In this document: positions 36,129-48,820 of the stretch, in pieces
Position numbering within the stretch: the stretch's first letter is position 1
Layout: the number at the start of each line of letters is the position of its first letter
NCBI RefSeq assembly: GCF_902810435.1
Contig: NZ_LR778174.1
Coordinates: 1,472,501 to 1,536,500 of the forward strand
DNA: 64,000 bases
Direction of reading: 5' to 3'
Source: Veillonella parvula
GTDB lineage: Bacteria > Bacillota > Negativicutes > Veillonellales > Veillonellaceae
Program-made: the position numbers and the translations under genes
Notes under the pieces: generated by a model
Told to the model about the DNA's origin: nothing
Databases searched by the model: none
The model's input: the letters and a program-made list of their open reading frames with translations, nothing else

Positions 36129-36157
36129 GATTTCCTCCTAACTCACGTAACAAAAAA

Positions 36158-36182
36158 GACCTTTTGCCCAGGGCAAAAGGTC
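36158..36182 (-). terminator. Attenuator terminator of the pyr operon
   Basis: The strong stem GACCTTTTGCCC/GGGCAAAAGGTC is followed by TTTTTT on the minus strand, 30 bases before pyrB. It lies in the leader, not at an operon end, and so is the regulated terminator. Confidence 0.9.
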
Positions 36183-36227
36183 AAATAGTTTGCACAAAGA
36201 AGCCCCTATGGGCACTTCAACTATATT

Positions 36228-36249
36228 CCTTTCTCAGCCTCTCTGGACT
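36228..36249 (-). promoter_or_regulatory. PyrR-binding loop of the pyr leader
   Basis: The minus strand reads AGTCCAGAGAGGCT and then GAGAAAGG. This is the conserved PyrR recognition element (A-R-U-C-C-N-G-N-G-A-G-G-Y-U) of Firmicutes pyr leaders. UMP/UTP-bound PyrR holds this anti-antiterminator, so the downstream hairpin forms and transcription stops. pyrR itself is not in the window. Confidence 0.9.
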
Positions 36250-36310
36250 AAATTAAAAGGTATTGTATTATGCAATGGTCTCTCGTACCATATATGCATT
36301 TTCTTTATTT

Positions 36311-36480: not shown

Positions 36481-39400
36481 TTAACCTAGTGGATATAATC
36501 TTGGTGGATTTTCTTCATCATTTTGCTGTTCATTTTGTGTAGTATACGGCATTTGGTCTCGTTGCGGCTCATTCGCTACAGGATCTATCTGCACATTTTG
36601 CTGATTTGGCGACAATTGAGGTTGACGTTGCTCACGACGACGTGTATTTTGAGATGCAGTCGGTCTAGGTTTTGTCAACTCATCAATGGATACAGCATTT
36701 GGAATAGTTACATTTGATGTATCCCCATGAATATCATCAAGTTCACTGAAGGAAGGAGTCCTCTTAGATGCTTGAGCAGCCTTACGTTCGGCTTCAAGTT
36801 GTTGACGTGCAAGTTCTGCACGACGACGAGCACTCTCTTGTTGATCTCGGACACGTTGAATAGCTTCAGCACGCTCTTTTGCTTTACGCTCGATTTCAGC
36901 TTGAGCCAACGCTTGTTGACGAGCAGCTTCAGCTTTACGCTCTGCTTCTAGTTGTGCTTTATATCGTTCCTCAGCAATACGTCGTGCCTCTGCGGCTTGA
37001 CGTTCTGCTTCAGCTCGTTCTGCAGCAAGTCGCTCTTGCTCTGCCTTACGAGCTTCCGCCACTATACGAGCCGCCTCTGCTTTACGAGCCTCTTCGGCAC
37101 GTCTTGCTTCTTCTATGCGGCGAGCTTCTTCGGCTCTAAGCGCTTCTTCAGCACGTTTAGCCTCTGCAACAATTCGAGCTTCTTCTGCACGGCGCGCAGC
37201 TTCAAGACGTTCCTGTTCAGCTCTACGTTGTGCCTCAAGTCTAGCTGCTTCTGCTTTCCGAGCTTCTTCTGCTCTACGTGCTTCTGCTGCTAAACGAGCT
37301 TGTTCAGCTTTACGCGCTGCTTCAATTCGAGCTGCTTCAGCTTTGCGTGCGTCCTCTGCTCGTTTTGCTTCTGCTGCTACGCGAGCGGCCTCAGCTTTAC
37401 GTTCCGCTTCAATTCGATCTTCTTCTGCTCTACGCGCTTCCTCCGCACGACGAGCCTCTTCTGCTTTTCTTGCTGCTTCCATTTGTTGTGCTTCCAAAGC
37501 AGCCTTAGCCTCTGCCGCTCTACGAGCATCTTCTTGACGCTTCGCTTCAAGAGCGGCTTGCTCAGCAACACGTTGTGCTTCTAAAGCAGCTTTCGCTTCT
37601 GCTGCTTTACGAGCTTCTTCGGCACGTCTTGCTTCCAATGCTTCCTGCTCGGCTTTACGTTGTGCTTCTAAACGAGCTCTAGCCTCAGCAGCCAAGCGTT
37701 CCTCTTCGGCCTTTTTGGCCTCTAAAGCAGCTTTTTCTGCTGCTCTTTGCGCTTCAAAGCGTGCCTTAGCTTCGGCCGCTTTTCTTTCTTCCTCCGCTTT
37801 GCGTGCGGCCTCAATACGAGCAGCTTCAATTCTACGTTCTTCTTCAAGACGTTTTGCTTCCGCTGCTAGTCGAGCTTCTTCTGCTTTACGAGCCGCCTCT
37901 AGCCGATCTGCTTCCGCTTTTCTCGCTGCCTCGATACGTGCCATTTCAGCTTTACGAGCCGCTTCCGCCTTGCGAGCTTCCTCTGCTTTACGCTCTGCTT
38001 CGGCTTTATCAGCCATCTTGCGCTCAATTTCAGCATGCTTGGCTTCTGCAGCCTTTCGCAACATTTCGGCTTTTTCTGCAGCTAGTCGAGCCTCTTCAGC
38101 TTTTTTACGAGCTAATGCTTCTTTCTCATCTTTTGCCTTTTTAAGTTGTGCTTCTTTTTTTACATCTGCTACAGCTTTATCGCTCAACTTTTTAGTTTCT
38201 TCATGAGCAATTGTTTCTGCCCGCTTAGCTGGACTTTCAATAGTAGATTTTTTAGTATCTACTGCTCCTTTATCTCCATCTTTACCACCTACAGGGCCTA
38301 CAGGTATTTGTGTGCCCCCTTGAGTTGGATGCCCTAAAATATCTTTAACATCTTTCGGCACATTAACAGCAATAGTTTGATGTTTTTGTGGATTTGCAAG
38401 AGATTCAGGAATTAACAAGAAACGAATTGGCAAATTCGATGCACCGGCTGGCATAAAGTTTAATGTTAATAAATCGCCCGCATTATAATTCCCTAATAGA
38501 CGACTATCTAATATAGTACCTTCCCCTAATGCGGAAATACCATCTTCACCACCAATGTGATAAGTTCGTGTATCAGTCTGTCCCCTTCTAGCACCTTGTT
38601 GATGCAATGCTTTTACCATAAAGGAACCAGAATAAGGTCCCCCAAGAGGGTTAAAATACAGCCTAAACGGTTCATTCCCCTTTGTAGGAATTTTTAACGT
38701 ATACGATACGCCGTAGTTACCACGGTCACGAACAAATGCTTTATTTTGCATTTCGTCTACACCATTGATAAACGTATCCTCTCGGTCATTACCAATTTCT
38801 ACAAAGGCACCACCTAAAGAGGTATCGAATGGTGTAGTAACCTCCATATTACGCTTAGCACCAGTATAAGTACCGCGTAATTGTATTTCATCAATAGGAA
38901 GGTTTTTCACCCAATGTGATGCATCTACAGGGTCCATCCCCATAGGCAACATCATGACACGCGCAAATATAGGCCCTTCTGTTTTAATATCTACAATACC
39001 CGTAAATAATGCATCTCGATTTACCGGTGTATTTTCTAAGTCACTAAAGATTAATTGGCGCCCTTGTGGTGGGATGCTAAGAGTATATAATGGTCTTGCA
39101 TCTGGGCTTTCATTAAGAGGTTGCTCCAAATCCTTTCGAGACAAATCACGACCTGCTGCAAAATAATCAGGTGTAGCTACAGATTTTAATTGTCTCATGA
39201 CATGTACTGAAGTTGGATAAGCCGTTTGGTTTTCTAAGACGATAGCAATCTTGTGAGGTAAATCCATTTCATTTACATGATAGAAATAGATACGACCATT
39301 GCCATTAATTGTACCTGCACTTAACGTACCTCCTACAGGTCCTACATATTCAGGACTATCCGATAGGAGCAATGTATCCGTTTGAGACACCAACGATGGT

Positions 39401-39528
39401 GGCAACGGAGAAAACTGAAAATATCCAATTGATTGTAAATCTATATCACGAGCTTCTACATGGCCTGTAAGGGCAGCCATGGCAGCCATAGCCGCAGCTA
39501 CACAATATCTTGATTTATAGGAAAACAT
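36481..39528 (-). CDS. Large secreted protein with a beta-rich head and an about 485-residue Ala/Glu/Lys/Arg helix
   Basis: I do not recognise this 1015-residue protein. It has a signal peptide (about 1-26, ending H-V-E-A-R). A beta-rich head (about 27-400) contains several G-G-x-x-x-x-G turns and L-Y-T-L-S-I-P-P-Q-G-R. Residues about 433-918 are almost only A, E, K, R with some L, I, Q and D, in units such as A-R-K-A-E-E-A-R. This is the pattern of a long single helix or coiled coil as in TolA domain II, but about twice as long. The tail is rich in Pro, Gln and Asn. The gene starts 12 bases after whiA, behind AGAGG, so it is read from the whiA transcript. An envelope-spanning role is inferred. 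The DNA of the helix is a 1.4-kb degenerate repeat. Confidence 0.75.
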   Translation of the reverse strand: MFSYKSRYCVAAAMAAMAALTGHVEARDIDLQSIGYFQFSPLPPSLVSQTDTLLLSDSPEYVGPVGGTLSAGTINGNGRIYFYHVNEMDLPHKIAIVLENQTAYPTSVHVMRQLKSVATPDYFAAGRDLSRKDLEQPLNESPDARPLYTLSIPPQGRQLIFSDLENTPVNRDALFTGIVDIKTEGPIFARVMMLPMGMDPVDASHWVKNLPIDEIQLRGTYTGAKRNMEVTTPFDTSLGGAFVEIGNDREDTFINGVDEMQNKAFVRDRGNYGVSYTLKIPTKGNEPFRLYFNPLGGPYSGSFMVKALHQQGARRGQTDTRTYHIGGEDGISALGEGTILDSRLLGNYNAGDLLTLNFMPAGASNLPIRFLLIPESLANPQKHQTIAVNVPKDVKDILGHPTQGGTQIPVGPVGGKDGDKGAVDTKKSTIESPAKRAETIAHEETKKLSDKAVADVKKEAQLKKAKDEKEALARKKAEEARLAAEKAEMLRKAAEAKHAEIERKMADKAEAERKAEEARKAEAARKAEMARIEAARKAEADRLEAARKAEEARLAAEAKRLEEERRIEAARIEAARKAEEERKAAEAKARFEAQRAAEKAALEAKKAEEERLAAEARARLEAQRKAEQEALEARRAEEARKAAEAKAALEAQRVAEQAALEAKRQEDARRAAEAKAALEAQQMEAARKAEEARRAEEARRAEEDRIEAERKAEAARVAAEAKRAEDARKAEAARIEAARKAEQARLAAEARRAEEARKAEAARLEAQRRAEQERLEAARRAEEARIVAEAKRAEEALRAEEARRIEEARRAEEARKAEAARIVAEARKAEQERLAAERAEAERQAAEARRIAEERYKAQLEAERKAEAARQQALAQAEIERKAKERAEAIQRVRDQQESARRRAELARQQLEAERKAAQASKRTPSFSELDDIHGDTSNVTIPNAVSIDELTKPRPTASQNTRRREQRQPQLSPNQQNVQIDPVANEPQRDQMPYTTQNEQQNDEENPPRLYPLG
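36775..38230. repeat. 1.45-kb degenerate coding repeat (Ala/Glu/Lys/Arg helix)
   Basis: The DNA repeats short units such as GCTTCTTCTGC and TTTACGAGC in varying order, one reading of which gives the helix of the large protein. The units are not identical and are not separated by unique spacers. Recombination between them could change the helix length. Confidence 0.8.
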
Positions 39529-39540
39529 ATATTATTACCT

Positions 39541-40488
39541 CTATACTTCTTCGAGCCCCAACGGGTCATACGTAAGTGCTAATGCTTCAATCTTCTTTAG
39601 TCGATGGCCAATTCCAGATTTAGATAGTTCCCCCTCCATCAACTCTTCAAGCTCTTTTAAACTCGCTTCAGGATTCTCCCACCGAAGTCTTGCAACGACG
39701 CGCAACTTTTCAGGTAATTCTTCAATACCGATTTCTCTATCAATAATACGGATTGCTTTTACCTGACGAACTGCTGCATCCACAACCTTCTGTAAATTTG
39801 CCGTCTCACAGTTGACTTGACGATTAATTTGATTCCGTACGGTTTTCATAATCCGCACATTTTCAAATTCCATAAGCGCCGATTGAGCACCCATGATTTG
39901 CAAACAATTTGTTACTGCATCCCCTTCTTTAAGATATACTACATACTCGTCCTTCCGCTCCGTTAGACCAGCGTGAATGTGAAAGAGCCGTAATACATGA
40001 ATAATTTCCCTCGCAAAAGTCTCATTCCCCGTCATAAACTCAAGATGGTAATCACTTTGTGGTTTATTAACAGAGCCTCCCCCTAAAAAAGCTCCCCTTA
40101 AAAAGGCACGTCGCGCTTCCATTGATTTGAGCCAACTACGAGGGATTTGTTCGCTCACAGGCCATAAAGCAAGATCCTCTAGAGCCTGTCTCCCCTCTAC
40201 AGAGGGTTCTACAGATAGCGTATACATATTTTTTTTACGCAGGTTTAAACCTTGTCGTACTAAAACATTTGTAGGTAATTCGTATTGCTTTTTCAAAATA
40301 CCAAGCAAACGACGAGCTACTGCATTATTAGCCGTAGCCAAACGAATGCCAACGGCACCTTTCATCCCCAAAATGATGGATCCGCCCATACGCAATAAGC
40401 AAGACGCTTCAATTTTCATGGCCACATCCGCATCACTAGAGGCTTCATATTGGCATAATTCATTTTTTACATCTTCTGCAAATGACAT
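39541..40488 (-). CDS. whiA: WhiA sporulation-regulator/homing-endonuclease-fold protein
   Basis: This 315-residue DNA-binding protein has a LAGLIDADG-like N-terminal domain (R-R-A-F-L-R-G-A-F-L-G-G-G-S-V-N at about 128-143) and a C-terminal HTH (S-L-K-E-L-E-E-L-M-E-G-E-L-S-K-S-G-I-G-H-R at about 280-300). In non-sporulating Firmicutes WhiA affects chromosome segregation and division. The start at 40488 has AAGGG six bases upstream; the ATG two codons earlier has no spacing. The rapZ-yvcK-whiA order is standard. Confidence 0.95.
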   Translation of the reverse strand: MSFAEDVKNELCQYEASSDADVAMKIEASCLLRMGGSIILGMKGAVGIRLATANNAVARRLLGILKKQYELPTNVLVRQGLNLRKKNMYTLSVEPSVEGRQALEDLALWPVSEQIPRSWLKSMEARRAFLRGAFLGGGSVNKPQSDYHLEFMTGNETFAREIIHVLRLFHIHAGLTERKDEYVVYLKEGDAVTNCLQIMGAQSALMEFENVRIMKTVRNQINRQVNCETANLQKVVDAAVRQVKAIRIIDREIGIEELPEKLRVVARLRWENPEASLKELEELMEGELSKSGIGHRLKKIEALALTYDPLGLEEV

Positions 40489-40503
40489 GGGCATCCCTTC
40501 TCA

Positions 40504-41853
40504 TTAATGATCATCTCGTTGAAGATAATATTCTAAGATATGCGGTTCAGTGTTAGATTGCATAGCATGAATGATATCCATAATAACTTTACCTAACCGT
40601 TCAGGATCGTGAACAGCTGGTTTTTGAGGGTTAATTAAGGTAGCTCGTATAGTGCGGATTCCTTTGGCTTGTAACTTTTTAGTATCTAATACCAATGGTT
40701 CAGATCCTACAGCACTATATTGTTCAACCATTTGAATTGGCAACGGCCCATCATTGGCAAGAACAGTATCTATAATTCCTTCTCCGCCATGAGCAATTAA
40801 AGCCTCTACATGGTCATTTAATGTGTAGCCTGTGGTTTCACCCGGTTGTGTCATAACATTAGCAATATAGATTTTATTAGCCTTACTGGCACGTACATGA
40901 GAGGCCAATTTATCAGTTAGTAAATTTGGGATAATGCTTGTATATAAACTACCAGGACCTAAAATAATCACATCGGCTTCATCAATGGCACGTAATGCAG
41001 CCCCCTCTGGCTTAGGCAATGCTGGATCACTATAGATATGACAAATCCGTTTACCCGAGTGTGGTATATTACTTTCACCTTCTACAATAGTGCCATCTGT
41101 CATCTCTGCACGCAATTTAATGAACTCTGTAGAGGAAGGAATTACACGACCACGGACACGCAACAATTTACTAGCCGCTTCAAGAGCTTCTTCAATATCT
41201 CCATCGTAAACTTGAGCAAGCGCAGTGATAAAGAGATTACCAAAGCTGTGTCCAGAAAGCTCATTTTCCCCTTCGAAGCGGTAACGGAATAAGTTCTCCA
41301 TTACCCCTTCTTGTTCAGCTAGTGATACTAAACAGTTTCTTAAATCACCAGGTGCTATCATTTGAAAATCTTCTCGCAAGCGGCCAGAAGAACCTCCATC
41401 ATCAGCAACTGTTACAATCGCAGATAGGTTTGATGTATGTGATTTCAAACCACGCAATAAATTTGATAAGCCTGTACCCCCACCGATTACTACAATTTTA
41501 GGGCCCTTATCGAGTCGGATATTTTGAAAGATAATATCCGATACCTTGCTGTCAGGATTAGGTAGTACCGCACGAATAATCGTTTTTATAACTTTACTTG
41601 TACCGATGAGCATTAATACAGCGCCAATCGATAGTACTACAGCCCCTACAGCAATGAGTACATTATAATTGTAAAAGCCCGTCATATTATAAGAAAAGGC
41701 AAGTACAATATCTTCAAGAACCGCAAGCCATTGATAGTTAAACATCAAGGAAATGCCAATAATTAAAAGACCTACACCACAACTAAATAGGGCAAGCCAA
41801 CGTTTTATATTTAGACCCGGAATTAGCCACCGGAACCATCCTTTTCGCAACAT
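40504..41853 (-). CDS. yvcK: YvcK/CofD-like gluconeogenesis and wall-morphology factor
   Basis: This 449-residue protein has two membrane segments at the N-terminus (about 17-37 and 66-84), then the CofD-like domain with V-I-G-G-G-T-G-L-S-N-L-L-R-G-L-K (about 124-139), D-D-G-G-S-S-G-R-L-R and G-P-G-S-L-Y-T-S-I-I-P-N-L-L. YvcK binds UDP-sugars and supports wall synthesis on gluconeogenic carbon. The N-terminal membrane anchor is longer than in Bacillus YvcK but common in Clostridia and Negativicutes. Confidence 0.93.
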   Translation of the reverse strand: MLRKGWFRWLIPGLNIKRWLALFSCGVGLLIIGISLMFNYQWLAVLEDIVLAFSYNMTGFYNYNVLIAVGAVVLSIGAVLMLIGTSKVIKTIIRAVLPNPDSKVSDIIFQNIRLDKGPKIVVIGGGTGLSNLLRGLKSHTSNLSAIVTVADDGGSSGRLREDFQMIAPGDLRNCLVSLAEQEGVMENLFRYRFEGENELSGHSFGNLFITALAQVYDGDIEEALEAASKLLRVRGRVIPSSTEFIKLRAEMTDGTIVEGESNIPHSGKRICHIYSDPALPKPEGAALRAIDEADVIILGPGSLYTSIIPNLLTDKLASHVRASKANKIYIANVMTQPGETTGYTLNDHVEALIAHGGEGIIDTVLANDGPLPIQMVEQYSAVGSEPLVLDTKKLQAKGIRTIRATLINPQKPAVHDPERLGKVIMDIIHAMQSNTEPHILEYYLQRDDH

Positions 41854-41865
41854 AATCCCCCCTAT

Positions 41866-42780
41866 CTAGTTATCAAGTGTTATAATTTCATGAGGATTAT
41901 AATCTTCTTCTACATTATTTTTCATCATATCTCTGTGTTCAACAGTGACACGATATCCTTTTTCTAACAAGTGGGAATATAGAGCCTCTGCCATAGCTAC
42001 AGATCTATGCATACCACCTGTACAGCCTACTGCCACAATAAATTGAGATTTTCCTTCTTGTTCATAATTTGGCACAAGAAAATCCATAGTATCAAAGTAA
42101 CGTCTTTTAAATTCCTCTGTTACTTCAAAGGAATGAATATATTCATTTACTGCTTTTACACGACCTGTTTTATGACGAAACTCGGGAATATAAAATGGAT
42201 TTGGTAGAAAACGAACATCCCATACCATATCTGCATCGAGAGGAATACCATATTTAAAACCAAAGCTCACTACAGTAATAGCCATACCATGAGCTTCATC
42301 AACTTGAGCAAAGCGCGTTTTTAAATACTCTTTCAAGCTGGCTGTTTTCATATTAGTGGTATCAATAATAAAATCTGCTTTATGGCGCACAGAGTTAAGA
42401 ATTTGGCGTTCCTTCTTTAGCCCTGTTGTAATCAGCCCATTAGGAGCCAATGGATGACTTCGTCGGCTTTCCTTATATCGACGAATCAAAGTCGCATCTG
42501 TAGCATCCATAAATACAATTTCAAAATCTACCTTCATATCTTTTAATGTATCTAACGATGAAGAAAGAGCTTCAAAAAATTCGCCCCCCCGAATATCTAC
42601 AACAAGAGCAACGCGATTAGTCCGTTCTCCACCTTGTCGGCAAATTTCACTTAATTTAGGAATCAACACAGGGGGAATATTATCAATACATAAATACCCC
42701 ATATCTTCTAAAGCTTGTAATACTTGAGTTTTGCCGGCACCTGACATACCTGTAACTATTAACAAACGAAATGCTTCCAT
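41866..42780 (-). CDS. rapZ: RapZ (YvcJ) nucleotide-binding RNase adapter
   Basis: This 304-residue P-loop protein has the Walker A V-T-G-M-S-G-A-G-K-T-Q-V (about 9-20) and D-N-I-P-P near 34. Its C-terminal domain has F-G-F-K-Y-G, D-V-R-F-L-P-N-P and G-C-T-G-G-M-H-R-S-V, which in E. coli RapZ binds sRNA and glucosamine-6-phosphate. In Firmicutes the family (YvcJ) hydrolyses nucleotides; the RNA role there is less clear. Confidence 0.95.
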   Translation of the reverse strand: MEAFRLLIVTGMSGAGKTQVLQALEDMGYLCIDNIPPVLIPKLSEICRQGGERTNRVALVVDIRGGEFFEALSSSLDTLKDMKVDFEIVFMDATDATLIRRYKESRRSHPLAPNGLITTGLKKERQILNSVRHKADFIIDTTNMKTASLKEYLKTRFAQVDEAHGMAITVVSFGFKYGIPLDADMVWDVRFLPNPFYIPEFRHKTGRVKAVNEYIHSFEVTEEFKRRYFDTMDFLVPNYEQEGKSQFIVAVGCTGGMHRSVAMAEALYSHLLEKGYRVTVEHRDMMKNNVEEDYNPHEIITLDN

Positions 42781-42792
42781 AGTTTTACTCCA

Positions 42793-43605
42793 TTATAAAA
42801 GATTATCTTCAATCCAATGGGCTACTCCATCGTCATTATGATGTCCACAAATTGTATGAGCCACAGATTTTACATGATCTGTAGCGTTTTCAACAGCTAC
42901 AGAGTAACCTGTTTTACGTAGCATAGAAATATCATTTTCTGCATTACCAAAAGAAATGATATGTTCTAAACTAATATGATTATCTAAAGCTAGTTGTGTC
43001 AAAGCATGCCCCTTTGACACATTAGGGGCAATGATTTCTAAAAAATCTTTTTGGCTACGAACTAGAGTCACCAAATCACCAACTCTAGGAGTTAAAATAT
43101 CAATAATTCGGTCAATTCCTTCTACTGTATCTATGGCAATTAGCTTATTCGGTTCAGAGTTTAAACTATATAACGTATCACCTAAAAATTCTGCCGTAGC
43201 ACCAGTCTGTTTTTCATAGAGAGCGGACTGCCACGTCTTATGATGGCATAATAAATGATCATCCACATACGATTGTATATGCCAATCATATTGTTTTGCT
43301 AATTCATAGATACGACGTACGGCTACAATAGGAACAGTCTGTTCAAATAGTTTATATCCTGTTTCTAATTCTTGAATGAGCCCACCAGAAAATAAAATCA
43401 GCGGCACATTACCAAGCTTTAACGCCTGACCAATGGGCTTAGCCGTTTGGTACATACGCCCCGTAGCAATCGTAATAACAACACCCTTTTGCTGCAACCG
43501 ATGTAATACATCTACTGTATAGTCAGATATAGAATTATCGCTACGCACCAAAGTTTCATCACAATCGATGGCAACCATTTTGATATGAGAAAAAGAAGAA
43601 TTCAT
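42793..43605 (-). CDS. Cof-type HAD-IIB hydrolase
   Basis: This 270-residue phosphatase shows the HAD motif I sequence A-I-D-C-D-E-T-L-V (about 13-21), I-T-I-A-T-G-R (motif II region, about 44-50), a cap domain, and F-G-N-A-E-N-D-I-S-M-L (motif IV). Members dephosphorylate sugar phosphates or FMN; the substrate here is unknown. It lies 12 bases upstream of rapZ and is probably the first gene of that operon. Confidence 0.9.
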   Translation of the reverse strand: MNSSFSHIKMVAIDCDETLVRSDNSISDYTVDVLHRLQQKGVVITIATGRMYQTAKPIGQALKLGNVPLILFSGGLIQELETGYKLFEQTVPIVAVRRIYELAKQYDWHIQSYVDDHLLCHHKTWQSALYEKQTGATAEFLGDTLYSLNSEPNKLIAIDTVEGIDRIIDILTPRVGDLVTLVRSQKDFLEIIAPNVSKGHALTQLALDNHISLEHIISFGNAENDISMLRKTGYSVAVENATDHVKSVAHTICGHHNDDGVAHWIEDNLL

Positions 43606-43880: not shown

Positions 43881-45086
43881 TTAGAATTTGTAGTTAAGGT
43901 CTGCACGGTAGAAGTCAGCTTTATCATTACCGTTTTGATCTTTCCAATCAAAACCGTAGTTAGCTGTTAAGCCTACGTTGTTTTGCAATGCATAGTCAAC
44001 AGTAGCCATCCAACCTTTAGCATCTGTAGTGTAGATGTGGTTGTAAGTAGTATCAATGATAGGAGCATTTTCTTTTGCGTTGAAGTATTGACCTTTTACG
44101 CCCCAAGTACCTTGTTTTTTGATGTCGTAGTTACCATAACCTACGCCTGCAGTCCAAGCTTGAGATTCTTCAAGGCTAGAAGCTTTCAACCATTCGCCAC
44201 CAACCCAAATTTTATCGAAGTTAACGTCAGTATTGAAACCATATACGTTTCTAACATCGTCATCTTGGTTAATACGGTCATAGAAACCACCAACCATAGC
44301 ATGTTTACCAACTTTACCATTAACATTTACGATAAGATCAGTAACATTTTCCTCTTTAGTCAAGCCAGCTGCATCGCCAGATACCATGTAACCATAAGCT
44401 ACTTGTGCCTTAACTTTGTCATTACCAGCATTGAATTGAGCACCATCAAAAGTACCATCAAATGCTAAGCCACCACCAACAACTTGACCGAAACGGCCAG
44501 CTTTCAAGGATACGCGTTCACCGAATTTATGGTTAACATATGCGCGATCGATTGTAGCATTTGCTTTACCTTCAGTTCTGGAGTCACCTAATTCGAAGTT
44601 ACCAGATGTCAAACGAACAACTGCATCAGTGCGATCGTTTACTTTTGCGTTGAATTGTACACGTGCACGAGCGTCGAATTTGGATTTAGCATGTTCAGCA
44701 TCTTTATAACGAAGACGAGCATCACCAGTAACTTTTACGTTACCAACGCGGTCTTCCAAACGAGCTACACGAACGCCCAAGTTGTTCAATTCGTTAGAGA
44801 ATTCATCAGCTAAACGGTTGATCATAGCTTGTTGTTCTGCGTTAGCGCGGTCTTGGTTAGCCATAGCTTTAGCTACCATTTGAGCCATTTCGTAACGAGT
44901 GATGTTGTTTTGGCCTTTGAAAGTACCATCAGGATAACCGTTAACGATACCAGCGTTTGCCAATTGAGAAACTGCTTGGTATGCCCAAGAATCTGGAGTT
45001 ACATCGGAGAATGGGTTAGCTGCGAAAGCTGTAGTTACACCCAAAACTGCTGTTGCTGCAAAGATTGCTGCCAATTGTTTTTTCAT
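43881..45086 (-). CDS. OmpM-type SLH-domain porin, copy 1
   Basis: This 401-residue major outer-membrane protein has a signal peptide (about 1-22, A-F-A|A). One SLH domain follows (F-S-D-V-T-P-D-S-W-A-Y-Q-A-V to I-T-R-Y-E-M-A-Q-M-V, about 26-75), then a coiled coil (about 80-115) and a 16-strand-type beta-barrel ending in aromatic Y-K-F. In Veillonella the SLH domain binds polyamine-modified peptidoglycan and ties the outer membrane to the wall, while the barrel conducts solutes. The gene has its own promoter, leader and terminator. The first 125 residues are nearly identical in the three copies; the barrel loops differ. Confidence 0.92.
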   Translation of the reverse strand: MKKQLAAIFAATAVLGVTTAFAANPFSDVTPDSWAYQAVSQLANAGIVNGYPDGTFKGQNNITRYEMAQMVAKAMANQDRANAEQQAMINRLADEFSNELNNLGVRVARLEDRVGNVKVTGDARLRYKDAEHAKSKFDARARVQFNAKVNDRTDAVVRLTSGNFELGDSRTEGKANATIDRAYVNHKFGERVSLKAGRFGQVVGGGLAFDGTFDGAQFNAGNDKVKAQVAYGYMVSGDAAGLTKEENVTDLIVNVNGKVGKHAMVGGFYDRINQDDDVRNVYGFNTDVNFDKIWVGGEWLKASSLEESQAWTAGVGYGNYDIKKQGTWGVKGQYFNAKENAPIIDTTYNHIYTTDAKGWMATVDYALQNNVGLTANYGFDWKDQNGNDKADFYRADLNYKF

Positions 45087-45166
45087 AGTTGAATTCCTTC
45101 TTTCTGAAAAAAATAGAAAATAAAATGTTACAAGTCATAACATTCACATTCTACTCGTTCTTCAGA

Positions 45167-45190
45167 TTAATAATGTATAGGAGTGTCCAC
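45167..45190 (-). CDS. Putative upstream ORF in the copy-1 leader (7 residues)
   Basis: GAGG, four bases, then GTG opens M-D-T-P-I-H-Y and stops. The same Shine-Dalgarno plus the first four codons are present in the leaders of the other two copies, where the start is ATG. The change to GTG keeps a usable start codon. Translation is not proven. Confidence 0.35.
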   Translation of the reverse strand: MDTPIHY

Positions 45191-45198
45191 GTTTCCTC
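45179..45198 (-). promoter_or_regulatory. Conserved 20-nt leader element, copy 1
   Basis: The minus strand reads GAGGAAACGTGGACACTCCT, 93 bases before the porin start. It is identical in all three copies except for one base. Confidence 0.7.
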
Positions 45199-45251
45199 AC
45201 CATACTCTACATCGAAGATCTTCGTTTCATGTATGTATCATGACCTGTACG

Positions 45252-45283
45252 GTGATAGTATCACAACCTTTTTTCTATGTAAA
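45252..45283 (-). promoter_or_regulatory. Promoter of porin gene 1 with GTG-N7-CAC dyad on the -10
   Basis: TTTACA (45283-45278), a 17-base spacer and TACTAT (45260-45255) form the promoter. GTG-ATACTAT-CAC (45252-45264) overlaps the -10. The predicted transcript has a leader of about 160 bases. Confidence 0.8.
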
Positions 45284-45597
45284 GCCTTAATACCTATGTT
45301 CAGCCTTATCAATAAATATTTTCTATTTTAAAAGTTTCATGAATTCAGTAACAACCTAACTTCATGAATATCTTTTCATTTTAAGGTTTTATACAAAAAT
45401 TTTTTTTATTAGACTTAAAATCCCAACATTACATTAATATTACTAATTAATTAAATATTTATTCATTAATTTAAAGAATAAGTCTAAAGCTATATTATCA
45501 TTATATTTATTTGCTAAAAAAGAATATCCTACTTACGCTCTATGTTAAATTGATAATACTCTAGGATGTTCACCGTGTATATTAATCTTCAAACTAC
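45284..45597. other. AT-rich spacer between porin genes 1 and 2
   Basis: The region between the copy-1 promoter and the copy-2 terminator is strongly AT-rich. I see no ORF, RNA gene or repeat in it. Confidence 0.6.
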
Positions 45598-45627
45598 AAA
45601 AAAGAGACTCCCGAAGGAGTCTCTTTC
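45598..45627 (-). terminator. Terminator of porin gene 2
   Basis: The stem AAAGAGACTCC/GGAGTCTCTTT with loop CGAA is identical to that of copy 1, so the duplicated unit included the terminator. Confidence 0.92.
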
Positions 45628-45645
45628 ATATAATTAACTATCAAA

Positions 45646-46851
45646 TTAGAATTTGTAGTTAAGTTCTGCACGGTAGAAATCGCTAAGATCGGAACCGCTT
45701 TGAGTTTTCCAGTCGAAACCGTAGTTAGCGGACAAACCAACGTTGTTTTGCAATGCATAGTTAACAGTTGCCATCCAACCTTTAGCATCTTGAGTGTAAA
45801 GATGATTATAAGTAGTATCTACGATAGGTGCATTTTCTTTTTGGTTAAAGTATTGACCTTTCACATCCCAAGTACCTTGTTTTTTGATGTCATAGTTACC
45901 ATAACCTACGCCAGCAGTCCAAGCTTGAGATTTTTCAAGGTTGGAAGCTTTCAACCATTCACCACCAACCCAAACTTTATCGAAGTTAGCATCAGCATTG
46001 AAACCATAGATGTTTTTAACATCATCGGATTGGTTTACGCGATCATAGAAACCGCCTACCATAGTGTTTTTACCAACTTTACCAGTTAAGCCAAGGTAAG
46101 TATCAGTTACGTTTTCTTCTTTAGTCAAACCAGCTGCTTCACCGGATACCATATAACCGTAAGCTGCTTGAGCTTGGATTTTGTCGTTGCCAACGTTCAA
46201 TTGAGCACCGTCGAATGTGCCGTCGAACATCAAGCCGCCACCGATAACTTGACCGAAACGACCAGCTTTCAAGGATACGCGTTCGCCGAATTTGTGGTTA
46301 ACATATGCGCGATCGATTGTAGCATTTGCATTACCTTCAGTAGTGGAGTTACCCAATTCGAAGTTACCAGAAGTCAAACGAACTACTGCGTCAGTGCGAT
46401 CATTTACTTTTGCGTTGAATTGTACACGTGCACGAGCGTCAAATTTGGATTTAGCATGTTCAGCATCACGGTAACGAAGACGAGCATCACCAGTAACTTT
46501 TACATTACCAACGCGGTCTTCCAAGCGAGCTACACGAACGCCCAAGTTGTTCAATTCGTTGGAGAATTCATCAGCCAAGCGGTTGATCATTGCTTGTTGT
46601 TCAGCGTTAGCGCGGTCTTGGTTAGCCATAGCTTTAGCTACCATTTGAGCCATTTCGTAACGAGTGATGTTATTTTGGCCTTTGAAAGTACCATCTGGGT
46701 AACCATTGATAACACCAGCGTTAGCCAATTGAGAAACTGCTTGGTATGCCCAAGAATCTGGAGTTACATCGGAAAATGGGTTAGCCGCGAATGCAGTAGT
46801 TACACCCAAAACTGCTGTTGCTGCAAAGATTGCTGCGAATTGTTTTTTCAT
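45646..46851 (-). CDS. OmpM-type SLH-domain porin, copy 2
   Basis: This 401-residue porin has the same layout as copy 1: signal peptide, SLH domain, coiled coil and barrel ending in Y-K-F. The two differ little up to about residue 230; differences cluster in loop regions (for example T-Y-L-G-L-T-G-K-V where copy 1 has L-I-V-N-V-N-G-K-V). The leader is almost identical to that of copy 1 for about 160 bases, so the duplication is recent or kept alike by gene conversion. Confidence 0.92.
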   Translation of the reverse strand: MKKQFAAIFAATAVLGVTTAFAANPFSDVTPDSWAYQAVSQLANAGVINGYPDGTFKGQNNITRYEMAQMVAKAMANQDRANAEQQAMINRLADEFSNELNNLGVRVARLEDRVGNVKVTGDARLRYRDAEHAKSKFDARARVQFNAKVNDRTDAVVRLTSGNFELGNSTTEGNANATIDRAYVNHKFGERVSLKAGRFGQVIGGGLMFDGTFDGAQLNVGNDKIQAQAAYGYMVSGEAAGLTKEENVTDTYLGLTGKVGKNTMVGGFYDRVNQSDDVKNIYGFNADANFDKVWVGGEWLKASNLEKSQAWTAGVGYGNYDIKKQGTWDVKGQYFNQKENAPIVDTTYNHLYTQDAKGWMATVNYALQNNVGLSANYGFDWKTQSGSDLSDFYRAELNYKF

Positions 46852-46919
46852 AGTTGAATTCCTTCTTTCTGAAAAAAATAGAAAATAAAATGTTACAAGT
46901 CATAACATTCATATTCTAC

Positions 46920-46955
46920 TCAGTTCTTCAGATTAAGAATTTCAGGAGTGTCCAT
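46920..46955 (-). CDS. Putative upstream ORF in the copy-2 leader (11 residues)
   Basis: GAGG, four bases and ATG open M-D-T-P-E-I-L-N-L-K-N, ending in TGA 68 bases before the porin start. Only M-D-T-P is shared with the other two leaders. Translation is not proven. Confidence 0.4.
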   Translation of the reverse strand: MDTPEILNLKN

Positions 46956-46963
46956 GTTTCCTC
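46944..46963 (-). promoter_or_regulatory. Conserved 20-nt leader element, copy 2
   Basis: GAGGAAACATGGACACTCCT stands 93 bases before the porin start. Closer to the gene, ATGTTA/TAACAT forms a small hairpin followed by a T-rich run; copy 1 has the same. Confidence 0.7.
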
Positions 46964-47016
46964 GCTATATTCTACATCGAAGTTCTTCGTTTCATATGTT
47001 TGCTACTTCTTGTACG

Positions 47017-47048
47017 GTGATATTAGCACAACCATTTTTTCATGTAAA
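47017..47048 (-). promoter_or_regulatory. Promoter of porin gene 2 with GTG-N7-CAC dyad on the -10
   Basis: TTTACA (47048-47043), 17 bases and TAATAT (47025-47020) form the promoter. GTG-CTAATAT-CAC overlaps the -10. The leader is about 160 bases. Confidence 0.8.
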
Positions 47049-47416
47049 CCCTTTTTTCTCAATTGTATTCTCAATATCTTATTTTTATAACTTAAAATAT
47101 CTTCAAGATTAGATTATATCTAGTTTTATAGGGTATAACTTTTTTCATAAAAAAATTTAATTTTATATCCCTTTCTATTAATTGAGAATTTTTATTATAT
47201 TTTTCATTAAGTTAAACTTATTAATATATATATAATTAATAAGAAATTTATCTTTCTATACAGAAAGATTTTATAAATATATCCTACAATATAAGGGATA
47301 TAATTCTTGATAACCACTAAATTATTCGATTACTATTAATATTATGTATTTATAAAACATTTTACTATATATATACTATTATGTATAAAATAATTCATAA
47401 TACTTTTATGCAACAA
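47049..47416. other. AT-rich spacer between porin genes 2 and 3
   Basis: About 370 bases of very AT-rich DNA with runs of TA steps. I see no ORF or structured element before the copy-3 terminator. Confidence 0.6.
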
Positions 47417-47446
47417 AAAAAAAGACTTCCAAAGAAGTCTTTTTTT
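47417..47446 (-). terminator. Terminator of porin gene 3
   Basis: The stem AAAAAAAGACTTC/GAAGTCTTTTTTT with a T-run lies 14 bases after the stop. It differs in sequence from the hairpin of copies 1 and 2. Confidence 0.9.
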
Positions 47447-47459
47447 GTTTGTGAGGGAA

Positions 47460-48722
47460 TTAGAATTTGTAATTTAATTCTGCACGGTAGAAATCGGAAA
47501 GATCATTACCGCTTTGGTCTTTAGAGTTGAAACCATAACCTGCGGATAAACCTACGTTATCTTGTACTGCGTAGTCTACGCTAGCCATGTAACCTTTGTA
47601 ACCATTAGATGTATTTGTTAAATCATATGCTTGATCCCAAGTGGAACTTACGATTGGTGCATTAGCTTTTTGATTGAAGTATTGACCTTTCACATCCCAT
47701 GTACCTTTTTTAGCGATGTCGTAGTTACCATAGCCAAGACCTGCTGTCCAAGCTTGAGAATTATCTACGTTGGAAGCTTTCAACCATTCACCGCCAGCCC
47801 ACAATTTATTTTTACGGAAGTCCGCATTGAAACCGTAAACATCTTGTTTATCGGAATTAACTGTTACACCATTGTGGTTCAAGTTGCCGCTAGATAATCT
47901 GGAGTAGAAACCACCAACGGAGGATTCTTTACCAACTTTACCTTTTAAGCCTACATAGGATACAGATGGGTTATCAGATTTGGAGTTGCCATCAGCAGCA
48001 CCATCAATCATATAACCATACGCGCCTTGTACTTGAACTTTATCATTACCTACATTCAATTGTGCACCGTCAAATGTATCATCGTACATCAAACCGCCAC
48101 CAATTGTTTGTTGGAAACGACCAGCTTTAGCAGATACGTTGCTACCAAATTTGTGATCTACGTATGCACGATCGATTGTTGCTTGAGAACCTTTAGTAGA
48201 GTCACCAAATTCGTAATTACCTTTTACACGAACAACTGCTTGTGTTTTATCATTTACATTAGCATTGAATTGTACACGTGCACGGCCGTCAGTTAAGGAT
48301 TTACTATTAGCTTTGTAAACACCTTTGTCTTCAGAACCTTGGTAACGGATACGAGCATCGCCAGTTACCTTTACATTACCTACACGGTCTTCCAAGCGAG
48401 ATACTCGAACGCCGAGGTTGTTCAACTCGTTAGAGAACTCATCTGCCAAGCGGTTAATCATAGCTTGTTGTTCAGCGTTAGCACGGTCTTGGTTAGCCAT
48501 AGCTTTAGCTACCATTTGAGCCATTTCATAACGAGTGATGTTGTTTTGGCCTTTGAAAGTGCCATCTGGATAACCATTAACGATACCAGCTTGTGCCAAT
48601 TGGGATACTGCTTGGTATGCCCAGCTGTCTGGAGTTACATCGGAGAATGGATTTGCAGCAAATGCTGTTGTTACACCTAACACTGCTGTTGCTGCTAACA
48701 TTGTTGCGAATTGTTTTTTCAT
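47460..48722 (-). CDS. OmpM-type SLH-domain porin, copy 3
   Basis: This 420-residue porin is the most divergent of the three. The signal peptide, SLH domain and coiled coil are nearly the same as in copies 1 and 2, but the barrel carries insertions (for example the stretch with S-E-D-K-G-V-Y-K-A-N-S near 140 and the loop with L-N-H-N-G-V-T-V). It ends Y-K-F like the others. The start at 48722 matches the M-K-K-Q start of the paralogs and has AAGGA upstream; a GTG at 48776 in the same frame would put 18 residues before the signal peptide and is not credible. Confidence 0.92.
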   Translation of the reverse strand: MKKQFATMLAATAVLGVTTAFAANPFSDVTPDSWAYQAVSQLAQAGIVNGYPDGTFKGQNNITRYEMAQMVAKAMANQDRANAEQQAMINRLADEFSNELNNLGVRVSRLEDRVGNVKVTGDARIRYQGSEDKGVYKANSKSLTDGRARVQFNANVNDKTQAVVRVKGNYEFGDSTKGSQATIDRAYVDHKFGSNVSAKAGRFQQTIGGGLMYDDTFDGAQLNVGNDKVQVQGAYGYMIDGAADGNSKSDNPSVSYVGLKGKVGKESSVGGFYSRLSSGNLNHNGVTVNSDKQDVYGFNADFRKNKLWAGGEWLKASNVDNSQAWTAGLGYGNYDIAKKGTWDVKGQYFNQKANAPIVSSTWDQAYDLTNTSNGYKGYMASVDYAVQDNVGLSAGYGFNSKDQSGNDLSDFYRAELNYKF

Positions 48723-48775
48723 AATGAATTCCTTCTTTCTTATAAATAAGAATTTATATTTGCAGAAGACGTTCA

Positions 48776-48820
48776 CTACATAAGTAGTATCACTATGAAA
48801 GATGTGTTAGGAGTGTCCAT
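48776..48820 (-). CDS. Putative upstream ORF in the copy-3 leader (14 residues)
   Basis: GAGG, four bases and ATG open M-D-T-P-N-T-S-F-I-V-I-L-L-M, ending in TAG. Beyond M-D-T-P the peptide differs from those of copies 1 and 2. Translation is not proven. Confidence 0.4.
   Translation of the reverse strand: MDTPNTSFIVILLM

Follow-up and report, generated by a model that had tools for sequence, protein, structure and literature searches.

How bacteria keep or lose an outer membrane is studied in diderm Firmicutes as the model, in which OmpM is the known tether. In Veillonella parvula, just beyond the OmpM genes, the operon that contains whiA ends in a gene for an exported protein with a very long, highly charged helical region, and the question raised by this locus is what such a protein does in the cell envelope. 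The window analysed here is a stretch of 64,000 nucleotides (NZ_LR778174.1, positions 1,472,501 to 1,536,500). A first-pass annotation of it, made from the letters alone, had proposed a secreted envelope protein of 1015 residues with a helix of about 485 residues, acting as a TolA-like or wall-to-outer-membrane spacer.

The gene, its operon and its published counterpart

The gene is present as a single copy in its genome and encodes 1015 residues from an ATG start (Table 1), which confirms the protein and helix described earlier and adds the strand, minus, which had not been given. A signal peptide is followed by a head, a linker, a run free of glycine and proline, and a 91-residue tail. By inspection, signal peptide cleavage falls between MFSYKSRYCVAAAMAAMAALTGHVEA and RD; in relatives the signal peptide ends in AHA, followed by S or G. 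Five motifs are invariant in the head (SDSPEYV, YFYHVNE, GNYGVSY, NPLGG.YSGSF and PAGASNLP). The last 91 residues are rich in P, Q, N, R and E, and a motif within them, SF.ELDD...NAVSID.LT, is conserved and adjoins the helix. The low complexity of the sequence also produces long antisense open frames on the plus strand (for example 37115-37537), which are artefacts of it.

Table 1. Features of the locus, in positions of the window
Feature	Position	Strand	Description
Whole gene	36481..39528	-	Exported head-helix-tail protein, 1015 aa; orthologue of V. parvula Vpar_0562
Signal peptide, residues 1-26	39451..39528	-	Type I, GHVEA/RD; by inspection, AxA-like site kept in relatives
β-rich head, about residues 27-400	38331..39450	-	Alignment, structure prediction, fold searches
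A/E/K/R helix, residues 434-924	36757..38229	-	Composition, 29-residue (87-bp) tandem repeats, AlphaFold2, dN/dS
P/Q/N/R-rich tail, residues 925-1015	36484..36756	-	Composition; conserved motif adjoining helix
whiA	39541-40494	-	Upstream operon
yvcK	40504-41853	-	Upstream operon
rapZ	41866-42780	-	Upstream operon
HAD hydrolase	42793-43605	-	Upstream operon
Terminator-like stem	43862-43835		Between ompM genes and HAD-rapZ-yvcK-whiA-head operon
Three tandem ompM genes	43881-48776	-	End just upstream of HAD-rapZ-yvcK-whiA-head operon
PyrR-binding attenuator	36149..36264	-	Rfam RF00515, 69.8 bits (gathering 54); upstream of pyrB
Terminator-like stem within attenuator	36182-36158	-	

The gene begins only 12 bases after the whiA stop, at the end of a HAD-rapZ-yvcK-whiA series with small gaps, which supports its earlier placement in the whiA operon. 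The PyrR attenuator starts the pyr operon (pyrB onward) and thus bounds the whiA-head operon downstream. A promoter scan gave 27 sites against 20.7 ± 4.3 in shuffles, no clear excess. Nearly every named Veillonella locus shows the series HAD-rapZ-yvcK-whiA-head, and elsewhere in the order, outside this family, whiA is likewise followed directly by the head (L045-L047, L100 and L117-L119). Outside Veillonellaceae, 15 of the 17 Negativicutes regions contain whiA together with the head, and in nine of the 17 a gene with a polysaccharide-deacetylase-like start (YHxV/I) adjoins whiA, in most cases separating it from the head; the order whiA, deacetylase-like gene, head recurs, often with a SPASM radical-SAM gene close by, at L103, L105, L106, L107, L110, L112, L113, L114 and L115. 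Pfam PF01522 was confirmed on both of the two such genes tested. A SPASM radical-SAM gene follows the head in several Negativicutes regions (by Pfam in one), and a TonB-ExbB-ExbD set takes the place of pyrB behind the head in the V. ratti/seminalis/intestinalis group (L040:7411-10510; also L039, L041, L042 and L043). Veillonellales are without a neighbouring deacetylase, and monoderm head loci have other neighbours. In two Omp85-negative genomes of 6.5-6.8 Mb, the head protein (L120:6674-8902, minus strand, and L121) is followed by an apparent Fur-family regulator and yidD.

The protein is real and has already been catalogued as unknown. In V. parvula DSM 2008, whose genome is 2,132,142 bp (PMC3035260), three OmpM genes, HAD, rapZ, yvcK and whiA precede an orthologue (genome G015, 681978-685025) that equals our protein in length, is 98% identical to it from end to end and lies in the same gene order. 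Since OmpM corresponds to Vpar_0555-0557, this order identifies the orthologue as Vpar_0562, a locus tag assigned by counting genes and by coordinates, with an exact fit. Vpar_0562 is listed among 78 outer membrane proteins of V. parvula, in the whole-cell, outer membrane and surface-label (PEG-biotin) fractions, and is annotated in Table 1 of that study as 'Unknown protein containing DUF1421 domain', its head and helix being left without analysis there (PMC5491611). By those authors' own account the outer membrane fraction (990 proteins) and the surface-label fraction (849, cytoplasmic proteins included) hold many contaminants. Together with the signal peptide, this listing supports the description as a secreted envelope protein. 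Domain profile searches did not reproduce DUF1421 on our protein, and the label is probably a composition match. We found no other paper naming Vpar_0562 in a literature search, and no mutant in this gene in the V. parvula biofilm literature.

The head and its distribution

The β-rich character given to the head by the first-pass annotation stands as a prediction (mean pLDDT 71, from a 14-sequence alignment), and searches of Pfam, NCBIfam and PDB sequences with head and helix as queries placed neither in a family above cut-off. Foldseek matches reached a TM of only ∼0.2, and VIA returned many unrelated β-sandwiches, with Z up to 8.4 and none confident. The VIA matches include the clostridial enterotoxin C-terminal domain, botulinum HA70, Cry domains, a collagen-binding domain and SIDT1; these rows are tied, and we take them to reflect a common fold only and not to point to a toxin. 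DUF3370 (PF11850) gives a weak match of ∼25 residues around GNYGVSY, with a best score of 17.7 bits (E 0.0018) against a curated cut-off of 25, so that it was set aside as a parent family, the relationship being unproven; a search with the head of our own protein gave no match to it.

The head is present in all 28 Veillonellaceae genomes, in 187 of 200 Negativicutes (74 of 81 genera) and in 53 of 398 genomes sampled across the phylum Bacillota. When Omp85 (PF01103) was scored as a diderm proxy in the same 398 genomes, the head was found in 13 of the 14 Negativicutes, in one of the 88 other Omp85-positive genomes and in 39 of the 296 that are Omp85-negative. Outside the Negativicutes it is therefore commoner in Omp85-negative than in Omp85-positive genomes, and is not a diderm marker. 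Homologues equally frequent in monoderm Firmicutes, which the first-pass annotation took as telling against its proposal, are largely what is seen for the head outside the Negativicutes; the overall distribution is nevertheless unequal, given its frequency within that class.

In the best Omp85-negative genomes the head profile matches with E values of 1e-23 to 1e-28 for one segment and 1e-32 to 1e-43 for the whole head. In the monoderm members that were read, the head forms the C-terminal part, after Cu_amine_oxidN1 and PKD domains. Deinococcus is another diderm lineage, with SLH-based outer membrane attachment, and megaplasmids of five of its species carry the head (tblastn E 6e-9; NZ_CP083456.1, NC_012527.1, NZ_CP097152.1, NZ_AP026562.1 and NZ_CP021082.1). 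These secreted proteins of monoderm Bacillota and Deinococcus resemble the Veillonella protein in their homologous C-terminal head, but differ from it in lacking a long helix and in starting with Cu_amine_oxidN1 and PKD domains, which were tested for in the Bacillota proteins. The head family is old, widespread and uncharacterised. Its near-universal presence in Negativicutes, shared with monoderm Bacillota and Deinococcus, indicates a link to the wall or the envelope in general and not to the outer membrane as such.

The helix: structure, constraint and origin

The longest run without a single glycine or proline comprises 491 residues (434-924), of which A makes up 33%, E 22%, R 17% and K 10%, with a net charge of +13. 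As one helix it would be 73.6 nm long, at 0.15 nm per residue. AlphaFold2, given the full protein, predicts one uninterrupted helix over residues 433-920 with modest confidence (pLDDT ∼49-84), in a full-length model that is poor overall (mean pLDDT 57, pTM 0.27); some of the dips in helix pLDDT coincide with alignment gaps. The continuity that had earlier been left conditional is thus predicted by the model.

Autocorrelation of charge and hydrophobicity along the helix peaks at lags of 29, 18, 11 and 6 residues, and the repeat unit is 29 residues (11+18); Tandem Repeats Finder recovers it as 87-bp units that are ∼75% alike. As 29 residues make eight turns at 3.63 residues per turn, duplications of this unit keep the helical phase. 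No 3.5-residue period, as expected of heptad spacing, was found in the helix, and large hydrophobic residues make up only ∼10% of it, both of which speak against a long coiled coil of the canonical kind. In the protein's own species only, a weak hydrophobic period of 3.69 barely exceeds that of shuffles. Pairs among E, K and R at i+3 and i+4 mostly occur at about twice expectation, with E to K/R at i+4 only ∼1.2-fold. A single or weakly associating helix would fit this sequence better than a canonical coiled coil.

Simple Nei-Gojobori counting between relatives close enough to measure gives dN/dS values of 0.05-0.12 for the helix, near those of the head (0.03-0.05) and below those of the tail (0.14-0.39), although the repeats may disturb dS; for distant pairs the helix dS exceeds 1, which is saturated, and these values were disregarded. 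From these ratios we conclude that the helix is under purifying selection and is not an accident of composition. Its length varies between species from 421 to 573 residues.

Open frames longer than 900 residues (906-1096) occur in only 11 of the 28 Veillonellaceae genomes, all of them Veillonella (our own genome, V. parvula, T11011-6, infantium, rogosae, denticariosi, atypica, tobetsuensis and near relatives), and all other listed Negativicutes head frames have at most 603. The long helix is kept in all 11 genomes of this parvula/atypica/denticariosi group, which are species of the human mouth. V. caviae (426 aa), V. ratti (∼483 aa) and V. seminalis are without it, V. agrestimuris has ∼110 charged residues after the head, and the head of most Negativicutes has no long helix attached. 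On a tree of heads the long helix needs one or two origins. It was gained recently, within one section of a single genus, and is not a diderm trait at all. Shorter charged helices are found elsewhere, inside the head in G014 (L016:583-2175) and before it in G345 (L104:5805-7412, plus strand), and it seems that the head has acquired charged helices more than once. An A/E/R-rich helix also precedes the head at L049:607-2214, as in L104, in another Negativicutes family.

Possible roles in the envelope

Domain II of TolA is a long A/E/K-rich envelope helix; TolA is also anchored in the inner membrane at its N-terminus, carries its TolA domain at the C-terminus and acts together with TolB and Pal. 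The Veillonella protein shares the helix with TolA, by composition and AlphaFold2 prediction, but not the other properties. In place of the anchor it has a cleavable type I signal peptide, by inspection, no TolA C-terminal domain or full-length TolA model matched it in Pfam or NCBIfam, and TolB_N (PF04052) is absent from all 28 Veillonellaceae genomes, with the E. coli control positive; the TolA-like assignment was accordingly dropped. Omp-α (OmpA1) of Thermotoga maritima is likewise a protein of the envelope, and its helix forms a very long rod of 316 residues and ∼50 nm (PMC3387000, PMC5082667), but its N-terminal SLH domain, C-terminal hydrophobic anchor, coiled-coil sequence and match of helix length to inter-membrane distance are not found here: the full protein gave no match to SLH or any other recognised wall-binding domain, and no hydrophobic anchor was seen at either end after signal cleavage. 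The measured width of the periplasm is 24.2 ± 1.8 nm (PMC10665443), about one third of the predicted length of the helix, so that the claim of a helix longer than the periplasm holds as a prediction while a straight radial rod from wall to outer membrane fails. A radial spacer between wall and outer membrane, or between the two membranes, as first proposed, therefore seems very improbable, despite a folded domain with a long charged helix next to it, the adjoining OmpM genes and the outer membrane fraction; the helix would have to be folded about three-fold, and most Negativicutes have the head without it. A working resemblance to TolA or Omp-α, as a long helical spacer, is possible.

Streptococcal surface proteins carry long helices, and the Veillonella helix might similarly cross the outer membrane and project outward as a stiff stalk for oral-biofilm contacts. 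Its excess over the periplasm width, its confinement to the parvula/atypica/denticariosi group and the PEG-biotin label on Vpar_0562 are consistent with such a fibre, but the plain signal peptide is accompanied by no barrel, autotransporter or other export element and the labelled fraction includes cytoplasmic proteins, and we consider it unlikely. It is also rather improbable that the helix is a tolerated low-complexity expansion with no function of its own, only the head being of importance. Tandem 87-bp repeats, variable length and the sufficiency of the head alone in most relatives all suit that reading; low dN/dS over 491 codons without glycine or proline, retention throughout the group and a conserved motif beyond the helix do not.

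The explanation that we favour, tentatively and at somewhat less than even confidence, is that a head associated with the outer membrane or wall carries a long charged helical arm in the periplasm, which spaces or cross-bridges wall and outer membrane with the tail peptide as a docking site. The protein would be exported by Sec, and its ancestral β-sandwich head, inherited with the whiA operon, would bind an envelope ligand, most likely a wall or envelope glycan, as the deacetylase-like genes adjoining whiA, usually next to the head, in other Negativicutes indirectly suggest. In one Veillonella group the helix would then have grown by duplication of its 29-residue repeats into a salt-bridge-rich, nearly straight structure, single or in a weak coiled coil, and the conserved peptide at its end probably binds a partner. 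This proposal draws on the three published fractions, through orthology by synteny, and on the predicted uninterrupted helix, its repeats, E/K/R pairing and constraint, and the narrow periplasm. Against it stand the many contaminants of those fractions, the lack of a recognised wall-binding domain or confident fold match for the head, the modest confidence of the helix and the Veillonellales loci, which have no neighbouring deacetylase.

The helix gained by one group of human oral species is longer than an upright position in the periplasm would allow, and as it can be removed while the head stays, V. parvula, being genetically tractable, allows a direct test of what it does. In a more specific version, which we regard as doubtful, the helix of oral Veillonella would form a stiff charged rod, 60-85 nm long, lying tangentially in the periplasm and cross-linking or ordering wall and outer membrane parallel to the surface. 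If true, diderm Firmicutes would have a type of envelope element so far undescribed in them, which arose in a single genus when repeats were duplicated behind an ancient head associated with the wall. In the favoured explanation, given a helix about three times the periplasm width, the arm would run along the wall between peptidoglycan and outer membrane, or be folded back, and would not form a radial pillar. Three passes of the 491 residues would measure ∼24.5 nm each, a coincidence with the periplasm width and no more.
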